Source: Granulicella sp.
GTDB lineage: Bacteria > Acidobacteriota > Terriglobia > Terriglobales > Acidobacteriaceae
Assembly (NCBI GenBank): GCA_003142235.1
Contig: PLOU01000081.1
Location: 1 to 40,615 of the forward strand
Direction: 5' to 3'
Length of the DNA stretch: 40,615 nt
Part shown: positions 3,715-27,716 of the stretch, one piece after another
Position numbering within the stretch: the first letter of the stretch is position 1
Layout of the letters: each line of letters starts with the position of its first letter
The notes under the pieces: model-generated
What the model saw: only the letters and a program-made list of their open reading frames with translations
The model's database searches: none
Told to the model about the DNA's origin: nothing
Translations under genes and position numbers: made by a program

Positions 3715-3999
3715 CGCCTGCAATACTCCTGCTTCGGAAACTTCACCAGCACGGTTCCGTCTCACGCCGCGGCGTTTGGCCCCGTAGCCCCTTGGTACGG
3801 CGCAGGGACCGAAACCCATGCCTCATTGTAGTGCGCCCTCTCCAGCGTTTCAAGCCGGGCCGCCGCCCCATCCCTGCTATCATCGACTACGAAGAGCTTG
3901 TCTTGCACAGCCATTGACAACCCGCAACGGAACCATCGCACCCGGATCCGCGTACCTGCTCTCAGCGCACCCTCTCCGTCAGGAGCATAGAAAGATCGC

Positions 4000-5421: not shown

Positions 5422-6218
5422 TCCATCCGGAGCAACCGATGCCCCTTGAAACCGCCACCGACACCACGCCTGAAACCGCCGACGGCCCCCACGACGGCGA
5501 GGTCATCGTCACCAGCAATCTCTGGAAGACCTACGAGATGGGCGAGCAGCAGGTCAACGCCCTCTGCGGCATCAACCTGCGCATCCTGCACAACGAGTAC
5601 GTCGCCATCATGGGCCCCTCCGGGTCCGGCAAGTCCACCCTGATGAACCTCATCGGATGCCTCGACTCGCCCACCCAGGGCCGCTACTGGCTCAACGGAC
5701 ACGACGTCTCCGCGCTCAACGACGACGAGCTGGCCCGCATCCGCAACAAGGAGATCGGCTTCGTCTTCCAGACCTTCAACCTGCTGGCCCGGGCCACCGC
5801 CCTGCACAACGTCGAGCTGCCGCTGATCTACAACGGCACCCCCTCGGCCGAACGCATCGCGCGCGCCAAGGAGGTGCTCGAGTCGGTCAGCCTCGGCGCC
5901 CGCATGACGCACAAGCCCAACGAGCTCTCCGGAGGCCAGCGCCAGCGCGTCGCCATCGCCCGCGCCCTGGTCAACCACCCCTCCATCATCCTCGCCGACG
6001 AGCCCACGGGAAACCTCGACTCCAAGACCGGAGACGAGATCATGGCCCTCTTCGACCACCTCCACGCCCAGGGAAACACCGTCATCATCGTCACCCACGA
6101 GCCGGACATCGCCGAGTACGCCCACCGAATCGTCACCCTCCACGACGGCGTCATCGCCAGCGACCACCCATCCCATCGCCAAGCCACCGGCGGCTCCAAG
6201 CACTCCCACTCCGACTGA
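5418..6218 (+). CDS. ABC transporter ATP-binding protein (MacB/LolD type)
   Basis: Walker [10 protein letters not shown], signature [15 protein letters not shown], Walker [14 protein letters not shown]. Confidence 0.95.
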
Positions 6219-6242
6219 CCCGCTCTTCCGTCGCAACGCAAG

Positions 6243-6932
6243 CTACAGCCGCTTGAGATACGCCTTGGCCGCCTCCAACTCGGGAAACAGCCGCTCCTCC
6301 GCCTGAAACGCCCTGGAATGCACGCAGCGCCGCCCCGCCTTCACCCGCACCGGATGCTTCAGGTGCAGCATCTCGTGATAGAGCAGATACTCGATGGCAC
6401 ATCGAGGGGTGTCAGCCCGGTCGAAGACGCGGCTCACTATGATGGTGTTGTGCGCCGCGTCGTAGTGGCCCAGCATCCGCCGCGCGTGGTGCGCGCTCCA
6501 GGTCAGTTGCGGCCGTCCCAGCAGCCCGTGAAAGAAGCGCGTGTTCAGGCCCTCGAAGACCTCGTCCAGATCGTAGCAACGACCCTCGGCCGTGAGGACC
6601 GTCTTGCGCCCGCGCGTCTGGCGGATCCGTTCCGCCTGCCGCGCCACCGCCTCCGAAGTGATATACCGCCGATAGCGGTCCGCATGGGCGCGCGCGATCG
6701 GCAATTTCTTGTAGAGCTTGGCCAGCAGGATGTGCGCGATCGCGTGGTGCACCGGCTCCGGCGCCGCCTCCAGCAGGTCTGAAAGCCGCACCAGCAGCCG
6801 CCCCTCGCGCAGCCGGATCGTGGTATTCAGCGAAGTGAACCGGCGGAAGCGGATGTCCAGCGCAGGAATGGGCGCGCGCGGGCGCAGCTCGCGGTACTCC
6901 TGCTCAAAGATTTCGATCAGTGCGGTAGACAC
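6243..6932 (-). CDS. SprT-like / zinc metallopeptidase domain protein
   Basis: HEMLH zinc motif near C-terminus; probable GTG start at 6932 (VSTALIEIFEQEYRELRP); the longer ORF to 7049 overlaps the neighbouring gene. Confidence 0.75.
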   Translation of the reverse strand: MSTALIEIFEQEYRELRPRAPIPALDIRFRRFTSLNTTIRLREGRLLVRLSDLLEAAPEPVHHAIAHILLAKLYKKLPIARAHADRYRRYITSEAVARQAERIRQTRGRKTVLTAEGRCYDLDEVFEGLNTRFFHGLLGRPQLTWSAHHARRMLGHYDAAHNTIIVSRVFDRADTPRCAIEYLLYHEMLHLKHPVRVKAGRRCVHSRAFQAEERLFPELEAAKAYLKRL

Positions 6933-6948
6933 GCTACGTTTGAGCTTA

Positions 6949-8946: not shown

Positions 8947-9077
8947 TGGAAACCTCCTGCGGGTACACCTCAAGAATACACTCCTGCGAAATCACGCATT
9001 CATAGAATTAGACGCGAATCTGGAGGCAAAGTTGCCGCTGCATCTCCCGATTCCGGTCCGGCTCCGGGCAGTCTCGT

Positions 9078-9740
9078 TCAGCGTTCTGTCGCCGTCTGGG
9101 GCACGATCGCGCCAGCCCCTTCGGGCCCATCCTCAACAAGATGAGCGATGTGGCCCACCTGCAGCTTCACCAGCTCCGGCTGCGCGATGCGCGTCGGCCC
9201 AAGCACTGCAATCCGGGGCAGCGGCCCGCGCACCATCGCCACTTCGTCGCACGCATACAGCCGCGGACAGGCCTGGCAGTCCTTGTATATCTTGTCCGGC
9301 AGCGTCGTCCGGTCGGCCAGCCGGAAACCGAAGTGGAAGAAGAAGTCGGGAATCCGCGTGAACAGGCACACCGACGCGACGCCCTGCTCCTCGGCCTCCT
9401 CCAGCAACGCGAGCAGAATCCGCCCGCCCGCGCCCTGCCCCTTGGCCTCCGGTTTCACCACGATCGACCGCACCTCGGCCAGGTGCGGCCCATACAGGTG
9501 CAGCGCACCGCAGCCCAGAAAGATGCCGCTCTCCGACTCGGCCACCGCGAAGTCGCGCACGTTCTCGCAGATGTCCGCGTAGTTGCGGCGCAGCAGAGTT
9601 CCATCGCCGGAGAGCGAGTTGACCAGCTCGAAGATGTTGACCGCGTCCTGTAGCCGCGCCTTGCGCACCACCGCGCCACCCGCACGCGCGCGCGTCGATG
9701 CGGTGGATTCGCTGGCGGCCATCAGGGACGAGCTGGACAA
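9078..9740 (-). CDS. GNAT N-acetyltransferase, short-form ArgA-like (putative N-acetylglutamate synthase)
   Basis: GNAT motif VVKPEAKGQGAGGRIL; GCGALH and DKIYKDCQACPRLYACDEVAM as in ArgA-like GNATs; last gene of arginine operon. Confidence 0.75.
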   Translation of the reverse strand: MSSSSLMAASESTASTRARAGGAVVRKARLQDAVNIFELVNSLSGDGTLLRRNYADICENVRDFAVAESESGIFLGCGALHLYGPHLAEVRSIVVKPEAKGQGAGGRILLALLEEAEEQGVASVCLFTRIPDFFFHFGFRLADRTTLPDKIYKDCQACPRLYACDEVAMVRGPLPRIAVLGPTRIAQPELVKLQVGHIAHLVEDGPEGAGAIVPQTATER

Positions 9741-9767
9741 GTTGATGAAGCTCCTCTCTCTATCTTC

Positions 9768-11432
9768 TCAGAGTTGCGCCAATGCGTCCGAACTCAGCCG
9801 CTGGCGGGCCTCGGTCAGCGCGGCACGCACCCGCGCGCGCGCCGTGCCGCCGATTACATCGTGGCAATCCAGCGTGGCCTCCAGCAAAATCGCCGCATGG
9901 AAATCTTCGCCGAACGCCGGACTCAACCCCTGCAACTCCGCTAGCAAAAGCGCGTCCAGCTCGCGCCCGCTCTCCAACCCCAGCCGCACCGCATTGCCCA
10001 CAATCTCGTGCGCCTTGCGGAACGGAACGCCCTTGTTCGAGAGATAGGTCGCCGCAGCCATCGCGTTCAGATAGCCCATCGCCGCAGCCGTCTTCATCCG
10101 TTCAAAGTTGAACTTCAGCGAGCGCGTGAACGCAGGCAGAATCCCCAGAATCCCGCGGACTGTGTCCGCTGCGTCGAAGACCGGTTCCTGGCCCTCCTGC
10201 AAGTCCTTGTTGTACGCCAGCGGCAGCCCCTTCAGCAGCACGGCCAGCGTCGTCGCCGCACCAATCAGCCGCGCGCTCTTGCCGCGTAGCAGCTCCGTAA
10301 AGTCCGGATTTTTCTTCTGCGGCATCGCGCTCGATCCGGTCGAGAAGGCCTCCGGCAGATCGAGAAACCCAAACTCCGCCGTCGAGTAAATCGTCAGTTC
10401 CTCGGCAAACCGCGAGATGTGAACGCCCAGCGTGGCCAGGGCTTGCGTGAACTCAAGCAGAAAGTCGCGGTCGCTGGTCGCGTCCATGCTGTTGGGCGTA
10501 GGCCCGTCGAACCCCAGTTCCCGCGCCGCGATCGCGCGGTCCAGCGCAAGCGTCGCGCCCGCAACCGCTCCCGAACCCAGAGGACACAGATTCATCCGCC
10601 TGCGCGCATCCGCGAGCCGCGAAACATCGCGCTCGATCATTGCCACATACGCCAGCAGCCAGTGCGCCACCAGCACCGGCTCCGCCCGCTGCATGTGCGT
10701 GTACGAGGGCATCGCCGCCTCGCCCGCCTGTTCCGCGAGTTCGAGCAGCGCCAGCGCCCACCTGCGCAGGCCTTTCATGATGTTGTCGATCGCCTCGCGC
10801 ACAAATAGCCGCATGTCGGTGGCAATCTGCTCGTTGCGGCTGCGTCCCGTGTGCAGCTTCAACGCCAGCGGACCGATCACCCGGGTGAGCTGAAGCTCGA
10901 CGAAGTGGTGAATGTCCTCGGCGTGGACCATGGAGGCGGCGAGATCGGCCTCTGCCGTGGCAGAAAATTCCTCGTACGCAGCATCGCCGTCCAGGTTGAG
11001 ATTTGCCTGGATGGCAAAGTGGTTCTTCATCCGCAGCAGCAGGGGATCGTCCTTCGCCAGAACGATGCGCGTGTGCTTCACATGGTCTTCGCAGAACTCC
11101 GGCTGCCTGCTGAGCCAGCGGCGTATAGACCGCGGCGTCGTTCCCAACTCCGCCCCCAGCAGCCTGGGGTTGACGAATCCCGGCTCAACCGGCGCGAACT
11201 CGGGCACGATGTCCCCAACCTGGTCGAGGCCGTCGATCATTCGTTCCAGCTCGGCATCCGTCAGAATACCGACAGCCGCAATCATCCGCGCGTGCGCCTT
11301 CGACGCGGCCACTTCCTGTGGAAGCAGACGCACATCGAACGGAAACGACCGCTGCCACTGCTCGAATGCGGCGTCCAGAGGTTCGCGGAAGCGCCCCGAC
11401 CACATCTTTGCGGATTGTTCTGTGTTGGACAT
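9768..11432 (-). CDS. argH: Argininosuccinate lyase (with internal insertion)
   Basis: KLHTGRSRNEQIATD, SSAMPQKKNPD signature, PSYTHMQRAEPV; 554 aa. Confidence 0.95.
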   Translation of the reverse strand: MSNTEQSAKMWSGRFREPLDAAFEQWQRSFPFDVRLLPQEVAASKAHARMIAAVGILTDAELERMIDGLDQVGDIVPEFAPVEPGFVNPRLLGAELGTTPRSIRRWLSRQPEFCEDHVKHTRIVLAKDDPLLLRMKNHFAIQANLNLDGDAAYEEFSATAEADLAASMVHAEDIHHFVELQLTRVIGPLALKLHTGRSRNEQIATDMRLFVREAIDNIMKGLRRWALALLELAEQAGEAAMPSYTHMQRAEPVLVAHWLLAYVAMIERDVSRLADARRRMNLCPLGSGAVAGATLALDRAIAARELGFDGPTPNSMDATSDRDFLLEFTQALATLGVHISRFAEELTIYSTAEFGFLDLPEAFSTGSSAMPQKKNPDFTELLRGKSARLIGAATTLAVLLKGLPLAYNKDLQEGQEPVFDAADTVRGILGILPAFTRSLKFNFERMKTAAAMGYLNAMAAATYLSNKGVPFRKAHEIVGNAVRLGLESGRELDALLLAELQGLSPAFGEDFHAAILLEATLDCHDVIGGTARARVRAALTEARQRLSSDALAQL

Positions 11433-11511
11433 CGTGCGGGCTCTTGCCTCGGGATTCTCTAGTCGAACGGTACGAAGATACTATGCAATCCGTGGACCCA
11501 CAGCATGTGGG

Positions 11512-12912
<1,401 letters not shown>

Positions 12913-14004
12913 TCAGCCTCGCTTCCTCGCCTGCAAGCCGCGGTCGCGCGCATTGGATATCCGCTTCGCCCCGCCCAGCAGCATCAGCAGCAGCGCTTTC
13001 TGCGCGTGCATCCGGTTCTCCGCCTGGTCGAAGACGATCGACTGCGGCCCATCCAGCACGGCATCGGTCACCTCGGCGTTGCGGTGCGCCGGAAGGCAGT
13101 GCATGAAGACCGCGTCCTGCCGCGCGTGGGCCATCAGCGCCTCGTTCACCTGGTATGGCTTGAAGATGGGCGCGCGCTTGGTCGCCTCGTGCTCGAACCC
13201 CATGCTGGTGCATACGTCCGTGTACACCGCATCCGCGCCCGTCACCGCCTTCACCGGGTCCTGCATCAGCGTGATGCTGCCGCCGGTCTGCTCGCATATC
13301 TCGATGGCCTTGTGAATAATGTCCAGCTTCGGCGCATATCCCTTGGGACTGGCAACCGTGCAATGCACGCCCAACTGCGCCGCCGTCAGCATCAGCGAGT
13401 GGCACACATTGTTGCCATCGCCCACATAGGTGAAGCGCAGGCCCTCCGCCGAGCCGAAGCGCTCCTCCAGCGTGAAGAAGTCCGCGATCGCCTGGCACGG
13501 GTGCTCATAGTCGCTGAGCGCGTTGATGACTGGAATGCGCGAGCACGCAGCCATCTCCGTGATGGTCTCGTGCGAGTAGGTGCGCAGCACGATCACGCTC
13601 ATCCATCGCTCGATATTGTGCGCCATGTCGGCCAGCGACTCGCGCTCGCCCAGCGGCGACTGCGTCTGGTCGACGAAGACCGCGTTGCCGCCCAGCGTGT
13701 TGATCGCCGCCTCGAAGGTCAGCCGTGTGCGCAGCGAGGCCTTCTCAAAAAACAAAACCATCTGCCGCCCATCCAGCGAGTGGCGAAAGTCCTCGGGGCT
13801 GCTCTTGACCGAGTGCGAGAGGTCCATGATCGCCGCCATCTCGTCCACCGACAGATCGGCGATGGAGCACAGGTCGCGCCCAGATAGACGCTTGGAGGCC
13901 TCGGCAAACGCGCTGTCGGACTGGATGCCGAGCTGCTTGGCGGAATGCGCCGGCTCTGCGGCGGCGTCCGGCTTCGGGTTCATCATATCGGCTTTGCTAC
14001 CCAT
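12913..14004 (-). CDS. argF: Ornithine carbamoyltransferase
   Basis: FEKASLRTRLTFE, FMHCLPAHRNAEV, DVCTSMG; start 14004 preceded by AGGAGA. Confidence 0.92.
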   Translation of the reverse strand: MGSKADMMNPKPDAAAEPAHSAKQLGIQSDSAFAEASKRLSGRDLCSIADLSVDEMAAIMDLSHSVKSSPEDFRHSLDGRQMVLFFEKASLRTRLTFEAAINTLGGNAVFVDQTQSPLGERESLADMAHNIERWMSVIVLRTYSHETITEMAACSRIPVINALSDYEHPCQAIADFFTLEERFGSAEGLRFTYVGDGNNVCHSLMLTAAQLGVHCTVASPKGYAPKLDIIHKAIEICEQTGGSITLMQDPVKAVTGADAVYTDVCTSMGFEHEATKRAPIFKPYQVNEALMAHARQDAVFMHCLPAHRNAEVTDAVLDGPQSIVFDQAENRMHAQKALLLMLLGGAKRISNARDRGLQARKRG

Positions 14005-15286
14005 GGGTTTCTTCTCCTGCCGGCGCTCGGCCGGCCATTGCTGCACTGTTCAAAGGTTGTGTGGTGAGGATTCCATCGAGCGCCGCGATGGCCCGGTCTA
14101 CATGCGCGCGCTCAAGGATGTACGGCGGCAAAAATCGAAGCACGGTCTCGCTGGTACGATTCACAATAATGTGTTGCTTCATCATCTCCGAGGCCGCATT
14201 CTTCGCCAGCTCCTCCGAGTCCAGCTCGATGCCCAGCATCAGCCCCATGCCGCGCACCGCGACGATGCAATCGTGCCGCGATTGAAGCCACTCAAGCTGT
14301 TGCTTGAAGTATCCGCCCACATCGCGGACGTGCGCCAGCAGGTCCGTCTGCTTCATGGTGTCGATCACCGCAATGGCGACCGCGCACACCAGCGGCCCGC
14401 CGCCGAAGGTGCTCCCGTGCATCCCCGGGGTGAAGGCGCGCGCGGCCTCTTCCGTGCATAGCATCGCGCCCATCGGCAGGCCATTCGCCATCGGCTTGGC
14501 CAGCGTCGTGATGTCCGGCAGAATCCCGTAGTGCTGATAGGCGAACCACTCGCCCGTGCGCCCCAGTCCAGACTGTATCTCGTCGGCCAGCAATAGCGCT
14601 CCGGTGGAATCGCACAGCTCGCGCGCCGCCGCAATGAATTCCTTGCTCACCGGACGAACGCCGCCCTCGCCCTGCACCGCCTCGATGCAGATTGCGCAGA
14701 CCTCATCGCTGAACTTCGCGCGCAGGTCCGCCACATCGTCGAAGCGCACGAACTCCACGCCCCCCATCACCGGCTCAAACGGCTCGCGGTACTTCTGCTT
14801 GTGCGTCGTCGCCACCGCGCCCATCGTCCGTCCGTGGAAGCTCTGTTCCACCGCCAGGAAGCGCGTCCCAACTTTCTTGCCCTCTGCGCGCAGCAGCGCC
14901 GCGTGCGCCCGCGCCAGCTTCAGCGCAGCCTCCCACGCCTCCGTGCCGGAGTTGCAGAAGAATACGCGGTCCAGCCCGCTGATCTCGGTCAGCCGCAGCG
15001 CCAGCTCCGCCGTGTGCTCGTGATAGAAGAGATTCGAGGTGTGCAGCAGCCGCTTGCTCTGCGCCGCAATCGCCGCTTCCACCGCGGGATGCGCGTAGCC
15101 CAGCGCAGACACGCCGATGCCGCTCAACAGATCCAGGTACTCGTCGCCCTGCTCGTCGCGCAGAGTCACGCCACTGCCGCCCACAAACAACACCGGGGTG
15201 CGCTGATATGTATTCAACAGCAGCTTCTTCTCCGCCGCCTGGATTGATGCCAGCTTCATCGAACCATCCTTCATTGCATCCCTCAT
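13997..15286 (-). CDS. argD: Acetylornithine aminotransferase
   Basis: Class-III aminotransferase: [46 protein letters not shown] overlap with argB at 15283-15286. Confidence 0.95.
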
Positions 15287-16065
15287 GCGACCGTGACCTC
15301 CGTTCCGTCGTTGACCTTGGTCGAGCACAGGTCCGGTAGTAGATGCGCCGACTCCGCAGGCAGAATGCGCACGCGCTTCACGCCATGGGTCAGCGCGTCG
15401 CGGCACGCATTCAGCTTGGGCAGCATTCCGCCGGTGACAACCCCCTGGCGCTCCAACTCCGGCACGTCCTTCAGCGAGAGCCAGCGCATCACCTCGCCAT
15501 CAGCTCCCTTCACGCCGGGAACGTCGGTGAGAAACACCAGCGCGTCGGCCTTGGTGCAGATTGCGCAGGCCGCGGCCATCTCGTCGGCGTTGATGTTGTA
15601 GTACTCGCCGTCAAACCCCAGCGCGATCGACGAGATCACAGGCACCGCGTCCATCTTCCAGATCGCTTCGAGCCACAGCGGATCGGTCGCTGCAATCTCT
15701 CCCACAAATCCCAGGTCGGGCACGGTCTTCTTCTTGCGCGCGCGAAAGACGTTGCCGTCGCCGCCCGCCAATCCCATCGCCGATTGCCCATGCGTGCGCA
15801 GCGCGGCCACCAGCGACTTGTTCACGCGCCCGGCCAACACCATCAGCGCGGCATCGCGCGTCTCCGCATCGGTGACACGCAGGCCGCTGACGAACTCGCT
15901 CTTCTTGCCCATCTGCTCCAACACGCGCGTCAGTTGCTTGCCGCCGCCGTGGACCAATGCCACCTGGTTGCCGTCGCGCACCAGCTCGAAGATCGCCTTG
16001 CCGCACGCGTGCAGCAAAGCCTTGTCCTCGATGGAGGCACCGCCCAGCTTGACCACATATTTCAC
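15283..16065 (-). CDS. argB: Acetylglutamate kinase
   Basis: VKYVVKLGGASIED, LVHGGGKQL, GMLPKLNACRDAL; GTG start overlapping the argC stop (GTGA, 16062-16065). Confidence 0.95.
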   Translation of the reverse strand: MKYVVKLGGASIEDKALLHACGKAIFELVRDGNQVALVHGGGKQLTRVLEQMGKKSEFVSGLRVTDAETRDAALMVLAGRVNKSLVAALRTHGQSAMGLAGGDGNVFRARKKKTVPDLGFVGEIAATDPLWLEAIWKMDAVPVISSIALGFDGEYYNINADEMAAACAICTKADALVFLTDVPGVKGADGEVMRWLSLKDVPELERQGVVTGGMLPKLNACRDALTHGVKRVRILPAESAHLLPDLCSTKVNDGTEVTVA

Positions 16066-17174
16066 AGCAGGCCCTCCGCTTCGTCCCAGCCGCACATCAC
16101 ATTCATGTTCTGCACCGCCTGGCCCGCCGCGCCCTTCAGCAGATTGTCCAGGCAGGAGACAACCACCAGGCGCCGGCCGTCCTTGTTCAACTCAAATCCC
16201 AGGTCGATGTAATTCGTGCGCACCACATGCTGGATCTGCGGCAGCTCCGGCGTGGCATGGACGCGGACCATCGGACTCGCCGCGTAGAACGCGCGCAGGC
16301 ACGCCTCAATCTGCTCCGGCTCCATGCGTTCCGCAAGCCGCACATAGATCGTCGAAAGAATGCCGCGCGGAATCGGCAGCAGGTGCGGCGTGAACTGAAG
16401 CTGCTCCGCCGTCAATCCAAGCTGCTCCAGCATCTCGCCCACATGGCGATGCCCGAAGACCGCGTACGCCGAAAGATTGTCCGCCGCGTACATGAAGTGC
16501 GTCTTCGCCGTGGCAGCCTTGCCCGCGCCGCTCACGCCGCTCTTCGCATCGCACACGATCCCGTGGTCCAAATCCACCAGCCCCGCGCGCAGCAGCGGAG
16601 CCAGCGCCAGAATAATCGACGTGGCATAACATCCGGGATTCGCCACCAGCCGCGCCGCGGCGATCGCCTCGCGATGCAGTTCCGGCGCGCCAAAGACAGC
16701 CTCCGCCTGCAACTTCTCCGCCAGCGCCGCATCCGCATCGTGCAGCTTGTAGACAGCGCGGTTCGCCGGGTCGTCGAGCCGCCACGCGCCGCTCAGGTCG
16801 ATCACGCGCACCCCATGCTCCAGCCACTCCGGGGCCCACTGGCGCGAGGTCTCGTGCGGCAGCGCCAGGAACACAATCTCCGTGCCCGCATCGCGAATCA
16901 ACTCCCAGCTAAACGCGCGGACCTCCGGCTGCAGCTTGCCCTCGCCCAGCGCCAACTGCGGGTGCAACTGCTCCAGCGGAACGCTGTTTCCCGCAGCGTT
17001 GTCGGCCACGCGCCCCAGAAAGAGCGGCTTGGCCCCGGCCAGCCGCGGGTGCGCCAGCAACAACCGTGCCAGCTCTCCGCCCGCATATCCGCCAACTCCG
17101 GCCACAGCCGTGCGCACCGTCGCGTTGCCGTGCACTTTCGTCGCCGCTTCGAGTTCAGTTTCTAGTCCCCGCAT
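16062..17174 (-). CDS. argC: N-acetyl-gamma-glutamyl-phosphate reductase
   Basis: VAGVGGYAGGELARLL, VANPGCYATSIILAL active-site Cys, HRHVGEM. Confidence 0.96.
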   Translation of the reverse strand: MRGLETELEAATKVHGNATVRTAVAGVGGYAGGELARLLLAHPRLAGAKPLFLGRVADNAAGNSVPLEQLHPQLALGEGKLQPEVRAFSWELIRDAGTEIVFLALPHETSRQWAPEWLEHGVRVIDLSGAWRLDDPANRAVYKLHDADAALAEKLQAEAVFGAPELHREAIAAARLVANPGCYATSIILALAPLLRAGLVDLDHGIVCDAKSGVSGAGKAATAKTHFMYAADNLSAYAVFGHRHVGEMLEQLGLTAEQLQFTPHLLPIPRGILSTIYVRLAERMEPEQIEACLRAFYAASPMVRVHATPELPQIQHVVRTNYIDLGFELNKDGRRLVVVSCLDNLLKGAAGQAVQNMNVMCGWDEAEGLL

Positions 17175-17191
17175 ATCAACCAATCAATTCC

Positions 17192-17275
17192 TGAAGTCGT
17201 CATCCTGTTCGAGCCGTCATTCCAGTTATTGAGCCGTCATTCCGGCGTAGCCAGAATCTCCGTATTTGTCTTTCG
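17192..17275. repeat. GTCATTCTG-type intergenic repeat, copy 1
   Basis: Three successive GAxxCGTCATyC starts, then ATTCCGGCGTAGCCAGAATCTCCGTATTT. Confidence 0.7.
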
Positions 17276-17297
17276 CTCCCGCAATACTCCGTTCAAT

Positions 17298-17741
17298 TCA
17301 GCCAATATATCCTTCGATGCGTACCTTCAACGTGCGCGCCTGCCGCTCGTCCGGGCAAACAATCAAGACCGTGTCGTCGCCGGCGATGGTGCCCACCACC
17401 TCCGGCCAGTCCTCGTAGTCGATGCCTGCCGCCACCGGCTGCGCGGCGCTGGTGGTGGTAATCAGCACCAACTGGTTCATGGCCTGGCGGACCTCGATGC
17501 CAAAGCTGCCCAGCACTTCGCGAATTCCCGGCAAGCTGTCCTCATCCTCGTCCGCCCCATTGCCCGGCAACGCATAACCCGCCGGCCCCTTGGACAGCCG
17601 CAGCTCGTGAATATCGCGCGAGAGCGTCGCCTGCGTCACATGGAACCCGCGCCGCGCAAGCCTGCGGCGCAGCTCGTCCTGGCTCGGCACCGGAGCCTGG
17701 TTGAGTAAATCGCGGATTGCGGTATGGCGCTGCTGCTTCAT
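17298..17741 (-). CDS. argR: Arginine repressor
   Basis: ArgR organisation: N-terminal HTH (FHVTQATLSRDIHELRLSKG), C-terminal GTIAGDDTVLIVCPDERQA. Confidence 0.95.
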   Translation of the reverse strand: MKQQRHTAIRDLLNQAPVPSQDELRRRLARRGFHVTQATLSRDIHELRLSKGPAGYALPGNGADEDEDSLPGIREVLGSFGIEVRQAMNQLVLITTTSAAQPVAAGIDYEDWPEVVGTIAGDDTVLIVCPDERQARTLKVRIEGYIG

Positions 17742-17989: not shown

Positions 17990-19444
17990 TCAGAACTTGT
18001 AGGCCTTGCGTACCAGGTTCACGGTCAGGTCCTTCACCAACTCGAACGCCTCGGCCTCGTCCAGGCGGTGTTCGGCGACCAGCCGCGCCAGGAACGCGCA
18101 GTCGACGCGGCGCGCGACGTCGTGCCGCGCCGGAATCGACAGAAACGCGCGCGTGTCGTCGTTGAAGCCGACCGTGTTGTAGAAGCCCGCGGTCTCGGTT
18201 GCACTCTCGCGGAAGCGCATCATCCCCTCCGGCGAGTCGAGGAACCACCACGGCGGGCCCAGCTTGACCGACGGGTAGTGGCCGGCCAGCGGCGCCAGCT
18301 CGCGCGAGTAGGTTGTCTCGTCGAGGGTGAAGAGGATCAATGTCAGGTTTGGCTCGTTGCCGTACTTCGTCAGCAGAGGACGCAGCGCGCGCACATACTC
18401 GGTGGGCGAGGGGATGTCGGCGCCCTTGTCGCGCCCGAACTTCTTGTACACCGCCGCGTTGTAGTTGCGGATGGCGCCGGCGTGAAGCTGCATCGTCAGC
18501 CCGTCCTCAACGCTCATGCCGGCCATCTCGGTCAGCATCTGTGCCTGGAACAGTTCCTCATCGCCCGGCTGCAGGCGTCCGCTGAAGATGCGTTGATACA
18601 GCCGCTCGGCCTCCGCCAGCGGCAGGTCCGCGGTCTGTGCGGTCAGGTGTCCGTGGTCGGTGGCCGTCGCTCCGTTCTTCTTGAAATAAGCCCGTCGCGA
18701 ACGAAGCGCCGCAAGATAGCCCTTCCAGTTCGACACGTCCTCGCCGGAGACCTCGCCCAGCTTCTTCAGCTTGTCCTGAAAGCCCAGAAACTCCGCATCC
18801 ACCACGGCGTCGGGGCGGAACGTAGGCAGCACACGGCCCTTCCAACCCGAGGCCTTGATCGCCTGGTGGAACTCCAGCGAATCGACCGCGCCGTCCGTGG
18901 TCGCCAGCACTTCGATATTGAATCGCTCAAACAGAGCGCGCGGCAGAAACTCCGGCGTCTGCAGCTTCTTCTCAATCGCTTCATAGAACTCGTCTGCGTT
19001 GGCCGCCGACAGCCGCTCCCTCAGGCCAAAGACATTCTCCAGCGCGAAGTCCATCCACAGCCGCGTCGGCGTGCCGCGGTACAGATAGTAGTGCCTGGCG
19101 AAGATGCGCCACACCTCGCGCGGGTCGGCGCTCTGCTTGCCGTCCTCCTGCGGGATTCCCAGCGATTCCAGCGGGATTCCCTGCGAGTAGAGCATACGGA
19201 AGATGTAGTGGTCGGGCTGGATGAACAGCGCCGCCGGATTGGGAAATGGCTTGTTCTCGGCGAACCAGCGCGGATCGGTGTGGCCGTGCGGAGAAATAAT
19301 CGGCAGGTTGCGGACCGTCTCATACAACTTCACGGCAACGGCGCGGGCGGTGGCTTCGGCAGGAAATAGCCGCTTTGCATCCAGCATGGGGTCCTTCACT
19401 CCTCTAACTTTGGCGCTGTACATGGTCTGACGAGTCCTGAACAT
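17990..19444 (-). CDS. uxaC: Glucuronate (uronate) isomerase
   Basis: 484 aa; SPHGHTDPRWFAENKPFPNPAALFIQPDHYIFRMLYSQG, DDTRAFLSIPARHDVARR typical of UxaC. Confidence 0.95.
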   Translation of the reverse strand: MFRTRQTMYSAKVRGVKDPMLDAKRLFPAEATARAVAVKLYETVRNLPIISPHGHTDPRWFAENKPFPNPAALFIQPDHYIFRMLYSQGIPLESLGIPQEDGKQSADPREVWRIFARHYYLYRGTPTRLWMDFALENVFGLRERLSAANADEFYEAIEKKLQTPEFLPRALFERFNIEVLATTDGAVDSLEFHQAIKASGWKGRVLPTFRPDAVVDAEFLGFQDKLKKLGEVSGEDVSNWKGYLAALRSRRAYFKKNGATATDHGHLTAQTADLPLAEAERLYQRIFSGRLQPGDEELFQAQMLTEMAGMSVEDGLTMQLHAGAIRNYNAAVYKKFGRDKGADIPSPTEYVRALRPLLTKYGNEPNLTLILFTLDETTYSRELAPLAGHYPSVKLGPPWWFLDSPEGMMRFRESATETAGFYNTVGFNDDTRAFLSIPARHDVARRVDCAFLARLVAEHRLDEAEAFELVKDLTVNLVRKAYKF

Positions 19445-19611: not shown

Positions 19612-20727
19612 CTACGGCTTGATCACGATCTTCATCGAGCTGGCCTGCGGGTGCGACGCCAGGTCGATCGCCTCCGCCGCATCCTCCAGCGGAAAACGGT
19701 GCGAGATCAGCCGCGTCAAATCGAAGCTCCCGTCGCGATAGCCCTCGAAGACGAGCTGCGCCACCGCGTCATTGATCTCGACCGACGACGAGTAGGAACC
19801 CATCAGCGTCTTCTCGTCCATGCACACCGCCGCCGGATCGAACGGCGCCTCGCCGTGCTGCGTCGAGGCAAACAGCATCACGCGCCCGCCCGGCCGAATC
19901 GCGTCCATCGCCGTGCGGATCAGCGCGTCCGCTCCCACCGCGACCAGAGCCACATCCGCGCCGCGCCCCTCCGTCGCCTCCTTCGCGGCGGCCACTACAT
20001 CGCCCCGCGCATCCAGTGGCCGGTCCAGGCCAAACCCCGCTGCAATCGCGTACCGCTCCGCATACAGATCGCTGGTCAGCACGGTCGCCCCCGTCCGCCG
20101 CGCCAGCGCCGCCAGCAGAGTCCCAATCGGCCCTTGTCCAATCACCAGCACCGTCTCATCCGCCTGCAACCCAAGCAGCCGCACCGCCTTGTAACACGTA
20201 TTCACCGGCTCGATAAACGAAGCCTGCTCGAAGGGAATGTCGTCGGGAATCCGGATGAGGCCCGCCGTCTTCCCCTCCCTGCCAACGATCCAGTCCATCA
20301 CGCGGATGTACTCCGCAAACCCGCCGCCCGCCCCCGCAAAGCCCGCCGTGCATCCCACCTTCTTGTAGGTCTCGCACTGCGCAAAGGTCTGCTTGCGACA
20401 GTAATAGCACCGCCCGCAGGGGATGTGGTGATACGCCATCACGCGGTCGCCAATCGCGAAGTGCGAGACGCCCTCTCCTACCATCGCAATCGTACCGGCC
20501 ATCTCGTGGCCGAAGATTCTCGGCGCCGAATGCGACCCCGAATGGATCTTCTTCAGGTCCGTCCCGCAGATGCCGCAGGTGTCGATGCGCACCAGCACCT
20601 CGCCGCGCCCAATCCCCCCATTCGCATTCAGCGGCACTGGCACCGTCTCCACGCGCACGTCGTTCACCCCGCGATACACCGCCGCGCGCATCGTCGCCGA
20701 AATTCTATTATTGGCTTCGCTCATCAA
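19612..20727 (-). CDS. Zinc-dependent MDR alcohol/polyol dehydrogenase (sorbitol-dehydrogenase-like)
   Basis: CGICGTD, GHE, structural Zn CGRCYYCRKQTFAQC, Rossmann motif VIGQGPIGTL; ATGA overlap with hpnG stop. Confidence 0.92.
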   Translation of the reverse strand: MMSEANNRISATMRAAVYRGVNDVRVETVPVPLNANGGIGRGEVLVRIDTCGICGTDLKKIHSGSHSAPRIFGHEMAGTIAMVGEGVSHFAIGDRVMAYHHIPCGRCYYCRKQTFAQCETYKKVGCTAGFAGAGGGFAEYIRVMDWIVGREGKTAGLIRIPDDIPFEQASFIEPVNTCYKAVRLLGLQADETVLVIGQGPIGTLLAALARRTGATVLTSDLYAERYAIAAGFGLDRPLDARGDVVAAAKEATEGRGADVALVAVGADALIRTAMDAIRPGGRVMLFASTQHGEAPFDPAAVCMDEKTLMGSYSSSVEINDAVAQLVFEGYRDGSFDLTRLISHRFPLEDAAEAIDLASHPQASSMKIVIKP

Positions 20728-21455
20728 TCTGAAATAGCACCTGTCCGATTAATTTCATACACATTGCGTTGCTTGTCATGAATGAGAAAGTGAAGGATTG
20801 CAGAGGCTAAATAATTCGCCCCGCTCGCACTTGCCCTGCCCAACCGAATTAGCGCGGGCCAATAGCCGGGACGCAAAAGCACATGCCCTATCAATCTCGC
20901 CATCTCCATCTGTCCCATCGCATTGATAAACGGATTCAGATTGGGCAGCCTCGCGGTCACACCATCCGTAACGATCTTCATGCAGCAGACCGGAATTCCA
21001 CGCATCTGCGCCAGCCGCGCAATCGTCGCAGATTCCATATCCACCAGCATACCGCCGTAGGTCTCCGCCAACCGCCGCTTTTCCGCCTCATTCGCCACCT
21101 GCGCCGTCGTCACCAGCACAACCGGCTTCTCGCGCTCAGCCAGCATAAATCTCTCCCCGGTCTGCGCATTCACCACAATGTTCGGAATGAAAAACTCGCC
21201 CGGATATCCTTCATCGCGCAACGCACCAGCCCAGCCAATCGACAGCACCATATCCACTGGGCCATCCATCTCTGCCTGCGCAAAGGCTCGCGTTGCAGCC
21301 TCAGCACCCATCCCGGCGCATACGGCAATCCATCTGTCGCAACCAGCATCCTGCGTCCACTTGGAAACAAATTGCTGCCGTGTCGGCACGCGCTTCCAGC
21401 CCTTCACCAGAGGCTTCAATTCTCCAGGCAGCGCGGCAATGATGCCAATCCTCAT
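20724..21455 (-). CDS. hpnG: Hopanoid-associated nucleoside phosphorylase HpnG
   Basis: MTA/SAH-nucleosidase-like fold (IGIIAALPGELKPL, LSIGWAGAL, DMESATIARLA) in hopanoid operon; ATGA overlap with hpnA. Confidence 0.85.
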   Translation of the reverse strand: MRIGIIAALPGELKPLVKGWKRVPTRQQFVSKWTQDAGCDRWIAVCAGMGAEAATRAFAQAEMDGPVDMVLSIGWAGALRDEGYPGEFFIPNIVVNAQTGERFMLAEREKPVVLVTTAQVANEAEKRRLAETYGGMLVDMESATIARLAQMRGIPVCCMKIVTDGVTARLPNLNPFINAMGQMEMARLIGHVLLRPGYWPALIRLGRASASGANYLASAILHFLIHDKQRNVYEINRTGAISD

Positions 21456-22474
21456 CGCGCCTCACTCGGCGGCATACTCGCCAGCGCAGGCGCGTAGCCG
21501 TTGGCCAGGAACCACTCGATCGCGGCGCGCAGTGCGTTGTAGACCGGCAGCACGCGAAATCCAAGCTCGCATTCCGCCTTCGCCGACGACGCAAACATCT
21601 GCTTGCGCGACAGCCGCACCTCCTCCACCGTCGCGCGCGGCTCCTTGCCCAGCAGCCTGCCTGTAATCGTCTCGTCGAAGAACGCGAACGCCAGCGCCAC
21701 CGCGTGCGGCACCTTCATCGTCGGCGAAGGCAGCCCCGTAATCGCCGACATGCGGTCCAGAATCTGCTTCAGCGTCAGGTTCTCGCCGCCCAGAATGGTT
21801 CGCTCGCCTGGCGTCCCGCGCTCCAGCGCGACAACGTGCATGCGCGCCACCTCCGAGACATCCACCAGGTTCAGTCCCGTGTCCACATACGCGGGAAATT
21901 TGCGATTCAGGAAGTCCACCACAATCCGCCCCGTCGGCGTCGGCTTCGCGTCCCCCGCTCCAATCGGCGTCGTCGGGTTCAGAATCATCACATGCTGTCC
22001 CGCGCGCGCCGCCTTGATCGCCTCCTGCTCGGCCATGAACTTCGACCGCTTGTACGGCCCAATCATCTCGTCCAGCGAGACCGGCGTCTCCTCATCCACG
22101 ATAGAGCCATCCATCTTGAAGCCCATCGTCGCCACGCTCGACGTGTATACCACCCTGGCTACACCCTCTTCGCGCGCCAGTCGCAGCAGCTCGCGCGTGC
22201 CGTCCACGTTGGCCGCGTACATCTGCTTCGGATCGCGCACCCACAGCCGATAGTCCGCCGCCACATGCACCAGCGCATCGCACCCGGCCAGCGCCGTGCG
22301 CAGCGACTCCGGCTGCCGCAGGTCGCCGACAACAACCTCCCCGGCAATTCCCTCGATCGCCGCCAGCCGGCTGGTCTTGCGCGTCAGCAACCGCAACTCC
22401 GCCCCCGCCGCGGCGTAAGCCCGCGCCACATGACTCCCAACAAATCCCGTGGAACCCGTAAGAAATACCTTCAT
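21452..22474 (-). CDS. hpnA: Hopanoid-associated sugar epimerase HpnA
   Basis: NAD(P)-binding MKVFLTGSTGFVGSHVA, LVHVAADYRLWVRDP, SDR YKRSK motif, hopanoid context. Confidence 0.9.
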   Translation of the reverse strand: MKVFLTGSTGFVGSHVARAYAAAGAELRLLTRKTSRLAAIEGIAGEVVVGDLRQPESLRTALAGCDALVHVAADYRLWVRDPKQMYAANVDGTRELLRLAREEGVARVVYTSSVATMGFKMDGSIVDEETPVSLDEMIGPYKRSKFMAEQEAIKAARAGQHVMILNPTTPIGAGDAKPTPTGRIVVDFLNRKFPAYVDTGLNLVDVSEVARMHVVALERGTPGERTILGGENLTLKQILDRMSAITGLPSPTMKVPHAVALAFAFFDETITGRLLGKEPRATVEEVRLSRKQMFASSAKAECELGFRVLPVYNALRAAIEWFLANGYAPALASMPPSEAR

Positions 22475-22611: not shown

Positions 22612-23040
22612 CTAGCACAGCCTCTCCGGCTCGATCTGAATATTTTTTTCGCCGGCGGCCTTCTTCTCCCAGTACTTCTTCACCCAGGCATCGAAGGTCT
22701 TGCCCGCTGCGTTGTCGCGTCCTGTAAACGCCAGCGCGGCAATCTCCGAGTAGGCAATGCTCAACTTGGTTTTTTCATTAATCGGAATAATCCGCACATA
22801 TGACTCGGCCAGCGTCGCGCCCGTGCGCCGGTCGAATAAATAGCCCTGTACCTGCGTGCCGTCCTTGCGCGTCACCGTAATATCGCCGCGATAGTCGAAG
22901 GCCTTCTCCAGCGCCTCGCGCACCTCGTCCTCGCCGGCCAGCTCGGGCACCCAGCCCTCAAGCTGCGCGCGCTCGCGTCCCGCCGCAACCTCCATCTCGT
23001 CCGCGCTCGCCTGTGCCAACTTCGCTGCCTCCTGCGTCAT
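22612..23040 (-). CDS. Conserved-looking hypothetical protein within hopanoid operon
   Basis: 142-aa ORF (MTQEAAKLAQ...IEPERLC) starting 1 nt after the hpnH stop, same strand. Confidence 0.75.
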   Translation of the reverse strand: MTQEAAKLAQASADEMEVAAGRERAQLEGWVPELAGEDEVREALEKAFDYRGDITVTRKDGTQVQGYLFDRRTGATLAESYVRIIPINEKTKLSIAYSEIAALAFTGRDNAAGKTFDAWVKKYWEKKAAGEKNIQIEPERLC

Positions 23041-23041
23041 G

Positions 23042-24190
23042 CTACTCACGCGAAACCCCCTGCAACTCCGCAGCCTGCTCCTCCGCTGCGGCATCCGGTG
23101 CCGCGATCTGCACCAGCGGCCCGTGCTGCGCCTTCGGCCACTCATTCAGCAGCTTCCGGGCGTTCTCATCCTCATACAGCGGCGGGAAAATATATTTCAT
23201 CGCCGTCACCAGAAATCCCTTCAGCGAACTGAAGTTATAGTCCACCGCCGAAGCCTCGTGCCCGGAGTGCACCATGCAGTTGGCGCACTTCGGGTTCCCG
23301 CTCTTCGCGCCGTACTTCTCCCACTCCACCGAATCCAGCAGCTCCTGGAAGGTGTCCGCGTAGCCATCCTGTAGCAGGTAGCAAGGCTTCTGCCAGCCGA
23401 AGATCGAAAACGTCGGCATCCCCCATGGCGTGCACTCGAAGTTCTGCTTCCCCATTAAATATTCCGAAAATAATGGATGGGTATTGAATTGCCACGTCTT
23501 TTTTCGATTGGACAGGATCGCCCGAAACAGCCTGCGCGAGCGCGCCTTGCCAAGAAAATGGTTCTGGTCGGGGGCCTTGTCGTAGGTATAGCCCGGCGAC
23601 ACCATCATGCTCTCCACGCCCGCCGCCATCATCTCGTCGAAGTGCGCGCGCACGCTGTTGGGATCGGCCCCGTCGAAGAGCGTCGTGTTGGTCGTCACGC
23701 GGAACCCCGCCGCCACCGCGGCACGCACGCCCTCCATCGCAATGTCGTACCCACCTTCGCGGCACACGGAGAGGTCGTGGTGCTCGCGTTGCCCATCCAC
23801 ATGCACCGAGAACGAGAGGTACTTGCTGGGCTTGAACAGGTGCAACTTTTCTTTCAGCAGCAGCGCGTTGGTGCACAGGTAGACGTACTTCCTGCGCGCC
23901 ACCAGGCCGGCCACAATCTCCGGCATCCGCGGGTGCAGCAGCGGCTCCCCGCCGGGAATGGACACCATCGGCGTGCCGCACTCCTCCACCGCGCGGAAGC
24001 ACTCCTCCGGCGTCAGGTCGGTCTTCAGGATATGCGCTGGATACTGGATCTTTCCGCATCCGGCGCATGCCAGGTTGCAGCGAAACAGAGGCTCCAGCAT
24101 CAACACCAGCGGGTACCGCCTGCGCCCCTTGAGCTTCTGCTTCAGCACATAGGTCGCCACGGTCCACATTTGTGAGATCGGCACTGCCAT
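23042..24190 (-). CDS. hpnH: Hopanoid biosynthesis radical SAM protein HpnH (adenosylhopane synthase)
   Basis: Radical SAM LEPLFRCNLACAGCGKIQYP, GGEPLLHP; between shc and hpnA. Confidence 0.94.
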   Translation of the reverse strand: MAVPISQMWTVATYVLKQKLKGRRRYPLVLMLEPLFRCNLACAGCGKIQYPAHILKTDLTPEECFRAVEECGTPMVSIPGGEPLLHPRMPEIVAGLVARRKYVYLCTNALLLKEKLHLFKPSKYLSFSVHVDGQREHHDLSVCREGGYDIAMEGVRAAVAAGFRVTTNTTLFDGADPNSVRAHFDEMMAAGVESMMVSPGYTYDKAPDQNHFLGKARSRRLFRAILSNRKKTWQFNTHPLFSEYLMGKQNFECTPWGMPTFSIFGWQKPCYLLQDGYADTFQELLDSVEWEKYGAKSGNPKCANCMVHSGHEASAVDYNFSSLKGFLVTAMKYIFPPLYEDENARKLLNEWPKAQHGPLVQIAAPDAAAEEQAAELQGVSRE

Positions 24191-24353
24191 CCGTAGTTCT
24201 CCTTTACACATCGACGAGCGAAACGCCTGCCAATGCAACCGCTGATTGTTATCGATCTACCGCAGGGCCCACCACTCTACTTTAAGATGACATCCGCGTC
24301 GCCGCAGACTCTCGCCAGTTCCTCAACCAGCAACCAACAACCAACAACTGTTC

Positions 24354-26384
24354 CTACGCCGCCCCAACCTCCCGCTCCATCACGCGCTTGTAGGTCGTCA
24401 GCGCCAGTAGCGGGAAGTAGTCGCGATACAGGTGGTACGCCAGGTAGAAGACGCGGGGAAATCCCGTCCCGGTGTAGATTGCCTCGCCATTGCGGCCTTC
24501 GGCGGACTCGTCCCAGGTCCCGCTCGGCAACTGCTTCGACACCAGCCACCGTATCCCCTTGGCCACCGAGTCCGACCGCGTGTCGCCCGCCGCCAGCAGT
24601 CCCAGCACCGCCCATGCCGTCTGCGAGGGCGTGCTTGGCCCGATGCCGCGCTGTCCGGGATCGTCGTAGCTGTCGCAGGTCTCGCCCCACCCGCCGTCCG
24701 CGTTCTGCACCATGCGAATCCACTCCGCAGCCTGCACAATCGGCGGCTCGTGGCTCCACATCCCCATCGCCTCCAGCCCGCGCAACACCAGAAACGTCCC
24801 GTACAGATAATTGACGCCCCAGCGCCCGAACCAGCTTCCGTCGGGCTCCTGCTGCTTGAACACAAACTGCACCGCACGCTCCACCCGCTTGTCGCGCCGG
24901 GTGTAGCCGTAGCTCGCCAGCATCTCCAGAATCCGCCCCGTAATGTCGACCGTCGGCGGGTCCAGCATCGCGTTGTGATCGGCAAACGGGATGTACTGGA
25001 AGATCATCTTGGTATTGTCGCGGTCGAAGCTGGCCCATCCGCCGTTCTTGCACTGCATGGCGAAGATCCAGTCCAGCGCGCGCTGCGACACCTCATGCTG
25101 ATATCGCTCCCGCGGATTGCGCACGCAATTCAGCGCCAGCAGCACCTGCGCGGAGTCGTCCACGTCCGGGTAAAACTCATTGTTGAACTCGAAGTACCAA
25201 CCGCCCGGCGCCACATCCTTGATGCTCTCCGCCCAGTCGCCCTTGTGGCGCACCTCCTTGGAGAGCAGCCAGTCCGCCGCCTTCAGCAGCCGCGGATCGT
25301 TCTTGGCCACTCCCGCCTCGCCCAGCGCGTAGACCGCCTGCGCCGTGTCCCACACCGGAGAACTGCATGGCTGCATTCGGAAGGTAGGCGTGGGGTAGCC
25401 CGGCTCGCCGTTCGGCTTGTCGATGCCCAGCCGCTCGAACTCATCCATTGCGCGGATGAACTGCGGGTCGTCCTGGGTGTATCCCAGGCAGGCCAGCGCG
25501 ACGATCGCATTCAGCATGGCGGGATAGATCGCGCCCAGCCCGTCCGACATCTCCATGCGCTCCAGCAGCCACTTCTCCGCTCTCTTCAACGCCATCTTGC
25601 GCAGCGGCCGGATGTGGACGCGCTCCGCCCAATGGAAGATGCGGTCCGCCGCCAGAAAGATGTTGCGCCAGCCGATCAGGCGCTTGCGGTCCCACTTCAG
25701 GTGCAGGTTCGCCTTCTTGCGCCCGCCCACAAACAGTTCGCTGATCCCCTGTTCCGGCGGAATCTTCTTGAACGGCTTCTTGGCGTAGGCAACCGACAGC
25801 GGAACCAGGATCGCGCGCGACCACGACGAGATCTCGTAGATATTGAAATAGAACCAGTTGGGGAACAGGATAATCTCGGGCGGCACGGCGGGCACGGCGT
25901 TGTAGTCATACTGCCCCAGCGTGCAAAGGTAGATCTTGGTGAACGTATTGACCGCGGTCACGCCGCCATGGGCCAGAATCCACTCCCGCGCCTTCACCAG
26001 CACTGGATGGTCCGCCGGCCATCCCATCAGCTTCAGCGCCAGGTACGCCTTCACGCCCAGCGAGATGTTCGACGGCCCGTTGGGGTAGATGCTCCATCCG
26101 CCGTCCGCGTTCTGGTGGCGCAGAATCTCATTGACCGCGCGCTCCATCTTGCCGCGGTCGCCTGTCCCCAGCATGGTGTGCAGGAAGATGTAGTCCGACT
26201 CCAGCATGGAATCGGCTTCCAGTTCGCCGCACCAGTAGCCATCCGGATGCTGTAGGCCGAGCAGCCAGTCCGTGGCCCGGGCGATGCCCTCGGAGACCCG
26301 GTCCAGTCCGATGTCCATCCGTCCATAGCGCGGCCGCACAGGCATTGCGGTCACCATCTTCGGATTCCGAGGAAATGTGCTCAT
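24354..26384 (-). CDS. shc: Squalene-hopene cyclase
   Basis: DVDDSA catalytic motif, multiple QW motifs (QNADGGWG, GYWCGEL, QEPDGSWFGRWG). Confidence 0.97.
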   Translation of the reverse strand: MSTFPRNPKMVTAMPVRPRYGRMDIGLDRVSEGIARATDWLLGLQHPDGYWCGELEADSMLESDYIFLHTMLGTGDRGKMERAVNEILRHQNADGGWSIYPNGPSNISLGVKAYLALKLMGWPADHPVLVKAREWILAHGGVTAVNTFTKIYLCTLGQYDYNAVPAVPPEIILFPNWFYFNIYEISSWSRAILVPLSVAYAKKPFKKIPPEQGISELFVGGRKKANLHLKWDRKRLIGWRNIFLAADRIFHWAERVHIRPLRKMALKRAEKWLLERMEMSDGLGAIYPAMLNAIVALACLGYTQDDPQFIRAMDEFERLGIDKPNGEPGYPTPTFRMQPCSSPVWDTAQAVYALGEAGVAKNDPRLLKAADWLLSKEVRHKGDWAESIKDVAPGGWYFEFNNEFYPDVDDSAQVLLALNCVRNPRERYQHEVSQRALDWIFAMQCKNGGWASFDRDNTKMIFQYIPFADHNAMLDPPTVDITGRILEMLASYGYTRRDKRVERAVQFVFKQQEPDGSWFGRWGVNYLYGTFLVLRGLEAMGMWSHEPPIVQAAEWIRMVQNADGGWGETCDSYDDPGQRGIGPSTPSQTAWAVLGLLAAGDTRSDSVAKGIRWLVSKQLPSGTWDESAEGRNGEAIYTGTGFPRVFYLAYHLYRDYFPLLALTTYKRVMEREVGAA

Positions 26385-26495
26385 CAATGGCAAACTCTCT
26401 GAAATCTCCAGGCGCTCGATCGAACTCTGCCTGGCCTATCTGGAACGACAGCTCGCAGGCTTCTGTCGGAAGACCGGCCTGCGTAGGATTGCGTT

Positions 26496-27479
26496 CTACT
26501 GCTGGACCGGCGGGGCCGACGCAATCGCCTGCACGATCTCCGGAGGAAGTCCGAAGCGCACATTCTCAGGCATCACCTCAACCTCGTCAACCGACCCGTA
26601 CCCCATCTCCTGCAGATAATCAACCACATGCTGCACCACAACCTCGGGGGCCGAAGCGCCCGCCGTCACGGCTACCGTATTCACGCCTGCAAGCCATTCC
26701 GTCCGGATCGCGTCCGCCGAATCGATCAGGTAAGAATGCGTGCCCAGGTTCTTCGATACCTCCACCAGCCGGTTGGAGTTCGAGCTGTTCTTCGACCCCA
26801 CCACCAGAACCAGGTCCGCGCCGTGGGCCACTTTTTTGACCGCAACCTGCCGGTTCTCCGTCGCATAGCAGATGTCCTGCGCATGGGGCCCGGCAATATT
26901 CGGGAACTTCCGCTTCAACGCGTCGATCATGTATCGCGCTTCATCCAAAGATAGTGTAGTTTGAGTAAGATACGCAACCTTGTTGGGGTTCGGAACCACC
27001 AGCGCATCCACCTCCTGCACGGTCGAAACCACATGCGTCACATCCGGCGCCTCGCCCTGCGTCCCCTCCACCTCTTCGTGGTCGCGATGCCCAACCAGCA
27101 CCAGCGAATAGCCCCGCCTGGAGAACTTGATCGCCTCCTGATGCACCTTCGTCACCAGCGGGCAGGTCGCGTCGATCACCTTCAGCTTCCGCTCCAGCGC
27201 GCGCTCCCGCACCGCCGGCGATACGCCGTGCGCCGAGAAGATCACCCGCGCCCCCTCCGGCACCTCGTCCAACTCGTTGACGAAGATCGCGCCCTTCTTG
27301 GCCAGGTCGGTCACCACATAGCTGTTGTGCACGATCTCCTTGCGAACGTAGATCGGGGCGCCAAAGGTCTCCAGCGCAATCTGCACAATGTCGATGGCCC
27401 GCACCACCCCCGCGCAGAAGCCCCGCGGCTTCAAGAGAAGTACCCGCTTGGTGGCAATCGCCGCGCCGCTCTGCTCCAT
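26496..27479 (-). CDS. ispH: 4-hydroxy-3-methylbut-2-enyl diphosphate reductase
   Basis: KPRGFCAGVVRAID, IFSAHGVSP, DATCPLV, VVGSKNSSNSNRLVEV. Confidence 0.96.
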   Translation of the reverse strand: MEQSGAAIATKRVLLLKPRGFCAGVVRAIDIVQIALETFGAPIYVRKEIVHNSYVVTDLAKKGAIFVNELDEVPEGARVIFSAHGVSPAVRERALERKLKVIDATCPLVTKVHQEAIKFSRRGYSLVLVGHRDHEEVEGTQGEAPDVTHVVSTVQEVDALVVPNPNKVAYLTQTTLSLDEARYMIDALKRKFPNIAGPHAQDICYATENRQVAVKKVAHGADLVLVVGSKNSSNSNRLVEVSKNLGTHSYLIDSADAIRTEWLAGVNTVAVTAGASAPEVVVQHVVDYLQEMGYGSVDEVEVMPENVRFGLPPEIVQAIASAPPVQQ

Positions 27480-27716
27480 GCCTGGATGGTCCAGTGTGGT
27501 TGTAGTCACAGGTTCGAGTATACCGTGTCCAGACCCGCCGCAACACCTGTCAGGAGCCCCAGACATCCCTCGGCGGTCCGCTCATGGCTCAAAGCTCATC
27601 GCTCATGGCAGATACACAAATCCACCTTCAGCTTCGGTAAACGGCGCAGAGCTTCAGCCCACGAATTTCAATCCAACGAACGCCGCCCCGTCCCCCGGTC
27701 TCCGCCCGGTCCGGAT

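Follow-up and report, generated by a model that had tools for sequence, protein, structure and literature searches.

Paired zinc-dependent medium-chain dehydrogenases in acidobacterial hopanoid clusters as a candidate for finishing the ribose-derived tail

Introduction

The sterol-like hopanoids belong to the major membrane lipids of bacteria and are also molecular fossils. The closest described systems are the acidobacterial gene clusters reported by Sinninghe Damsté et al. 2017 (PMC5462960), with hpnA-hpnG-ug1 as cluster C and ug2-hpnC-hpnD-hpnE as cluster A. The gene ug2 was described there as 'often annotated as a Zn-binding alcohol dehydrogenase of ca. 350 aa' and was tied to squalene synthesis, for which no enzyme beyond HpnCDE is required according to the same paper. 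HpnA was suggested for the conversion of ribosylhopane to bacteriohopanetetrol (BHT), and Chloracidobacterium was given as a BHT producer.

As late as November 2025, PMC12583986 described the enzyme for the conversion of ribosylhopane to BHT as 'not yet established', in agreement with the preliminary description of the present locus, by which no dedicated enzyme for this step was well established. No named enzyme for it was found in the literature that was searched. As related in PMC12583986, a cell-free preparation of Methylobacterium organophilum reduces ribosylhopane, and the enzyme is given there as not identified (Bodlenner et al. 2015); the reaction is the same as that proposed for MDR1, the medium-chain dehydrogenase (MDR) encoded at the locus analysed here.

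Materials and methods

Gene order was compared in 80 named loci, which were the best 80 of a genome-collection scan and were all from Acidobacteriaceae or like them in sequence. The survey of Acidobacteriota was carried out with 297 genomes, using a threshold of E <= 1e-60 for MDR1 and taking the presence of shc or HpnH as the mark of a hopanoid-bearing genome. Reading of the beta-2 end as a cofactor motif was calibrated within the same alignment, in which the NAD enzymes xylitol dehydrogenase, TADH, GatD and TDH were acidic at this place and the NADP enzyme ketose reductase was not.

Results

Gene order and junctions in the window

The window, that is, the whole stretch of DNA analysed (40,615 nucleotides), carries on its minus strand the order ispH-shc-hpnH-(ug3)-hpnA-hpnG-MDR, followed by a glucuronate isomerase gene (Table 1). 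The placement of hpnA, hpnG and the MDR gene downstream of shc and hpnH, as given in the preliminary description, was thus confirmed for every gene. Of the two ATGA overlaps reported there, the one between hpnA and hpnG was found as described, and the one between hpnG and MDR1 was not: this junction reads TTGATGA, with the stop TGA at 20726-20724 and the start ATG at 20724-20722. An overlap of 4 nt would need a TTG start at 20727 and would read TTGA, not ATGA. The glucuronate isomerase gene (17990-19444) lies between the hopanoid operon and arginine genes, the latter comprising argH, argG, the ornithine carbamoyltransferase gene and further likely arg genes at 9768-17741 on the minus strand.

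Table 1. Features of the hopanoid operon in the window
Feature	Position	Strand	Basis or remark
ispH, HMBPP reductase	26496..27566	-	profile match; first gene of conserved cluster
shc, squalene-hopene cyclase	24354..26393	-	TIGR01507, 738.7 bits vs cut-off 431
hpnH, adenosyl-hopene transferase (radical SAM)	23042..24238	-	TIGR03470, 519.6 bits vs 225
ug3, small conserved protein	22612..23145	-	no NCBIfam/Pfam match; fits published 'ug3'
hpnA, extended SDR, 'hopanoid-associated sugar epimerase'	21452..22474	-	TIGR03466, 473.7 bits vs cut-off 368
hpnA stop / hpnG start, ATGA overlap	21452..21455	-	sequence
hpnG, adenosylhopane nucleosidase/phosphorylase homologue	20724..21455	-	TIGR03468 E 2.5e-26, below cut-off; PNP_UDP_1
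hpnG stop / MDR1 start, TGATG, one shared base at 20724	20722..20726	-	sequence
MDR1, Zn-dependent medium-chain dehydrogenase, 370 aa, NAD-type motif (D219)	19612..20724	-	ADH_N + ADH_zinc_N

The small gene ug3, the real start of which is probably inside the listed ORF, is kept between hpnH and hpnA in the clusters of Acidobacteriaceae. The hpnG gene is assigned by best hit and synteny; its product retains the VDMESA and TDG motifs and scored 92.6 bits against the TIGR03468 cut-off of 187. This cut-off was reached by no HpnG match in the surveyed Acidobacteriota, and hpnG would therefore be overlooked by automatic annotation in the phylum.

Fold, zinc sites and family placement of MDR1

Both ADH_N and ADH_zinc_N (GroES-like and nucleotide-binding domains, respectively) matched MDR1 above the gathering score. 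The catalytic zinc ligands C53, H73, E74 and E172 and the structural zinc cysteines C103, C106, C109 and C117 were invariant in 16 homologues, which bears out the earlier statement that both zinc motifs are intact. The AlphaFold2 model of MDR1 (mean pLDDT 89.8) was nearest to the structures of (2R,3R)-butanediol, L-threonine 3-, sorbitol and xylitol dehydrogenases (TM-score 0.76-0.82 on the query). Like these polyol and secondary-alcohol enzymes, MDR1 has a catalytic Cys-His-Glu-Glu set, a four-cysteine structural zinc site and a Glu-Pro motif; unlike them, it shares at most about 30% identity with any and forms a clade apart from all PDB rows. By domains, zinc ligands and fold match, MDR1 is a member of the Zn-dependent MDR superfamily.

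Within this superfamily, no curated family was matched by MDR1 at its cut-off. The best curated matches were the scyllo-inosose 3-dehydrogenase IolM (NF041097, 165.6 bits, cut-off 450) and L-threonine 3-dehydrogenase (TIGR00692, 147 bits, cut-off 458), and status as an equivalog of IolM or Tdh was ruled out by these scores. Membership of the sorbitol dehydrogenase family was also ruled out, since MDR1 stands in a clade separate from ketose reductase and xylitol dehydrogenase (98/90) and is 26% identical to human sorbitol dehydrogenase. MDR1 falls into none of the characterised dehydrogenase clades.

Sorbitol dehydrogenase converts a C2 alcohol to a ketone and back, while the formation of BHT from ribosylhopane is a reduction of the C1 aldehyde/hemiacetal. 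The statement that enzymes of the sorbitol dehydrogenase type do the required chemistry accordingly does not hold. The structural matches of MDR1 listed above all act on secondary alcohols, and homology thus favours a secondary-alcohol enzyme.

Conservation and linkage of MDR1

In the survey of hpnG neighbourhoods proposed in the preliminary description, the adjacency was seen to extend well past close relatives. hpnG was located directly upstream of MDR1 in 74 of the 80 best-matching named loci, with a median gap of 8 nt, and because of this the arrangement is not due to chance. Among the six others, the upstream sequence is shorter than 1.1 kb in three, and no hpnG was detectable upstream of MDR1 in L142 (Bryocella elongata), L153 and L157; in the genomes of L142 and L153, where MDR1 lies away from the hpn genes, HpnH is still encoded. 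MDR1 was found inside the hopanoid clusters of four families (f1, f2, f28 and f50), with 47-54% identity outside f1, and in f28 it follows hpnA, with hpnG elsewhere in the genome. MDR1 is a conserved member of the hopanoid operon in several acidobacterial families.

Among the 297 acidobacterial genomes, MDR1 was present in 46, HpnH in 76 and shc in 76. MDR1 was recorded in 43/78 genomes with shc or HpnH and in 3/219 without them, as counts that are not corrected for kinship. Two of these three genomes, both incomplete and metagenome-assembled (G211, 84% complete, and G282, 88% complete), have an hpnA or HpnG match on the contig and are probably hopanoid-bearing too. The third, G221 (f39), is rated 100% complete and has an MDR pair (see below), and no match to shc, HpnH or HpnG was obtained in it.

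MDR1 in the strict sense was absent from 35 of the 78 hopanoid-bearing acidobacterial genomes, which lowers the case for a universal enzyme and not that for a lineage-specific one. Clusters of the type shc-hpnH-(hpnA)-hpnG without MDR1 occur in families f47, f26, f48, f10, f25 and others. No common substitute reductase was found among the genes beside hpnG in these clusters, which were isoprenoid genes, squalene synthases, TonB and a glycosyltransferase.

Some single loci are recorded here for their own sake. The MDR-free hopanoid cluster of L084 (G059, 3400-13400) contains genes for HMG-CoA reductase, a GHMP kinase, a squalene-synthase-like protein and a member of the FMN-dependent dehydrogenase family that may be a type 2 IPP isomerase; this set suggests a mevalonate route beside shc-hpnH-hpnG. 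hpnH of L088 (G029, 6942-7946) is divided into two ORFs by an in-frame stop or frameshift, and hpnA of L083 (G214, 7056-7502 and 13209-14141) is apparently in two parts, with about 5.7 kb of other sequence between them.

MDR2, the paired enzyme

In f1, f2, f28 and f50, MDR1 is directly followed by a second MDR (MDR2) about one third identical to it, and MDR2 by hpnC/hpnD and often hpnE. This second enzyme is not mentioned in the preliminary description. Among the 80 best-matching named loci, MDR2 came directly after MDR1 in 38 (median gap 9.5 nt); in the others, the window's genus included, the cluster is broken between the two genes. After such a split, MDR1 remains with hpnA-hpnG and MDR2 with hpnC, and in the metagenome-assembled genome of the window MDR2 was found on contig C195 with hpnC, hpnD and hpnE. 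Each of the two proteins formed one clade in the tree, with the distant pairs of other families near both. The beta-2 end was acidic in 22/22 MDR1 rows (D in 21, E in 1) and lacked an acidic residue in 18/19 MDR2 rows (VKR, VKH, GRR, GKR or similar). Judged by this motif, MDR1 would be NAD-type and MDR2 NADP-type.

From their positions, ug1 and ug2 of PMC5462960 would correspond to MDR1 and MDR2, respectively, as ug1 follows hpnA-hpnG and ug2 precedes hpnC. The gene after hpnA-hpnG having been published as ug1, its association with hopanoids is not new; the present analysis differs from that paper in that ug1 was not called an MDR there, the two genes were not treated as a pair and cofactors were not analysed.

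Pair-like genes outside the hopanoid context

Homologous pairs were present in the hopanoid-free families f60, f34 and f45. In f34 (L207, L208 and L209), a divergent tandem MDR pair is located between dxs and nadK, with ispA in the neighbourhood, and these genomes gave no shc match. The pair of G221 adjoins a proline dehydrogenase-like gene, and genes resembling those of nucleoside salvage were found in G066/G221. Overall, in genomes that are hopanoid-free or have the pair unlinked, its neighbours indicated no clear function.

MDR2-like genes unlinked to hpn genes were detected by profile search in Chloracidobacterium and relatives. Among 88 genomes of the class of Chloracidobacterium (that of G051), such a gene was present in the shc-less families f60 and f81 and absent from the shc-bearing f10 and f70. 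The distribution follows ancestry and not shc, so the wider pair is no marker of hopanoids, and the MDR2-like genes of the shc-bearing Chloracidobacterium group were dropped as independent support. An MDR2-like gene is kept in G309 (Chloracidobacterium genus group g76, 99% complete), in which no shc match was found, though its relatives have shc.

Discussion

The reading preferred here, with a probability of roughly 0.45, is that MDR1 and MDR2 are a zinc dehydrogenase pair of the hopanoid side-chain operon with a redox function on the ribose-derived tail. The ancestral order was probably ispH-shc-hpnH-hpnA-hpnG-MDR1-MDR2-hpnC-hpnD-hpnE, and in the window's genus the cluster would have broken after MDR1. 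HpnH links adenosine to hopene and HpnG takes off the adenine, and the pair would then carry out redox on the tail. Gene order, zinc ligands, motif split, monophyly and distribution are shown above; the substrate, direction and division of labour of the pair we infer to be as follows. MDR2 would be the likelier of the two to reduce ribosylhopane to BHT, since an NADP-type motif is expected of a biosynthetic reductase and thereby favours it over MDR1, and MDR1 would more probably convert a secondary alcohol of the tail to a ketone or the reverse. A role of MDR1 in hopanoid side-chain metabolism is likely, and the strict MDR1 clade quite probably has a hopanoid function in these families. For the formation of BHT by one of the pair, with MDR2 ahead of MDR1, the odds are put at somewhat less than even.

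The proposal of the preliminary description, in which MDR1 itself reduces the C1 aldehyde of the ribose to the C35 alcohol of BHT, stands as to the conserved place of the gene in the hopanoid operon, its linkage to hpnG being the tightest of the two MDRs, and it has in its favour the intact zinc sites and a step without an assigned enzyme (PMC12583986). It is weakened by the NAD-type motif, by the nearest solved structures, which are not aldose reductases, by the many hopanoid-bearing relatives without MDR1, by the presence of MDR1 in G221, by the non-adjacent hpnG of f28 and by the BHT producer Chloracidobacterium (f32/g76, putatively assigned from genome architecture), whose only homologue is distant and belongs to a sister clade. 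We regard a ribosylhopane reductase function of MDR1 as possible but unlikely and do not favour it. About the same standing is given to HpnA as the reductase (as suggested in PMC5462960), with the MDRs doing something else: hpnA occurs in clusters with MDRs as well as in those that lack them, and a lipid-modifying SDR ranks second among its NCBIfam matches, but in studies cited in PMC5462960 Burkholderia cenocepacia is reported not to require hpnA for BHT, and the BHT producer Rhodopseudomonas to lack the gene.

It is equally doubtful that the ancestral function of the pair is unrelated to hopanoids and that its place in the operon reflects a persistent genomic accident or co-regulation only. 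The pairs or pair-like genes in hopanoid-free f60, f34, f45 and f25, the MDR2-like gene in f81 and the neighbours of the pair in G221 and G066 would fit this, but hardly any member of the strict MDR1 clade comes from a genome that is not hopanoid-bearing, and the clade lies in the hpn cluster across families, and the f39 branch may precede recruitment. A service to squalene or general isoprenoid supply instead of the side chain, as proposed in print for ug2 (MDR2), appears distinctly improbable. MDR2 does remain with hpnC-hpnD-hpnE, also in PMC5462960, and the divergent pair of f34 has isoprenoid genes around it (ispA-dxs-...-nadK); however, split clusters keep MDR1 with hpnA/hpnG and not with hpnC, and HpnCDE suffice for squalene (PMC5462960).

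For the zinc dehydrogenase pair acting on the tail, a more specific version, to which only a slight chance is given, is a two-enzyme redox epimerase. MDR1 would use NAD+ to oxidise the C34 hydroxyl, which is the polyol C2 position attacked by enzymes of the sorbitol dehydrogenase type, and MDR2 would use NADPH to reduce the 34-ketone to the opposite configuration.

The two unnamed genes of the published cluster can now be named as a zinc dehydrogenase pair with opposite cofactor motifs, which is an unproven but testable candidate for the tail-finishing step. If MDR1 or MDR2 acts on the tail, the missing step would be supplied. If the pair is an epimerase, it would determine the 34R/34S ratio of bacteriohopanetetrol, which serves as a geochemical biomarker, and would bear on the reading of BHT isomers in sediments.
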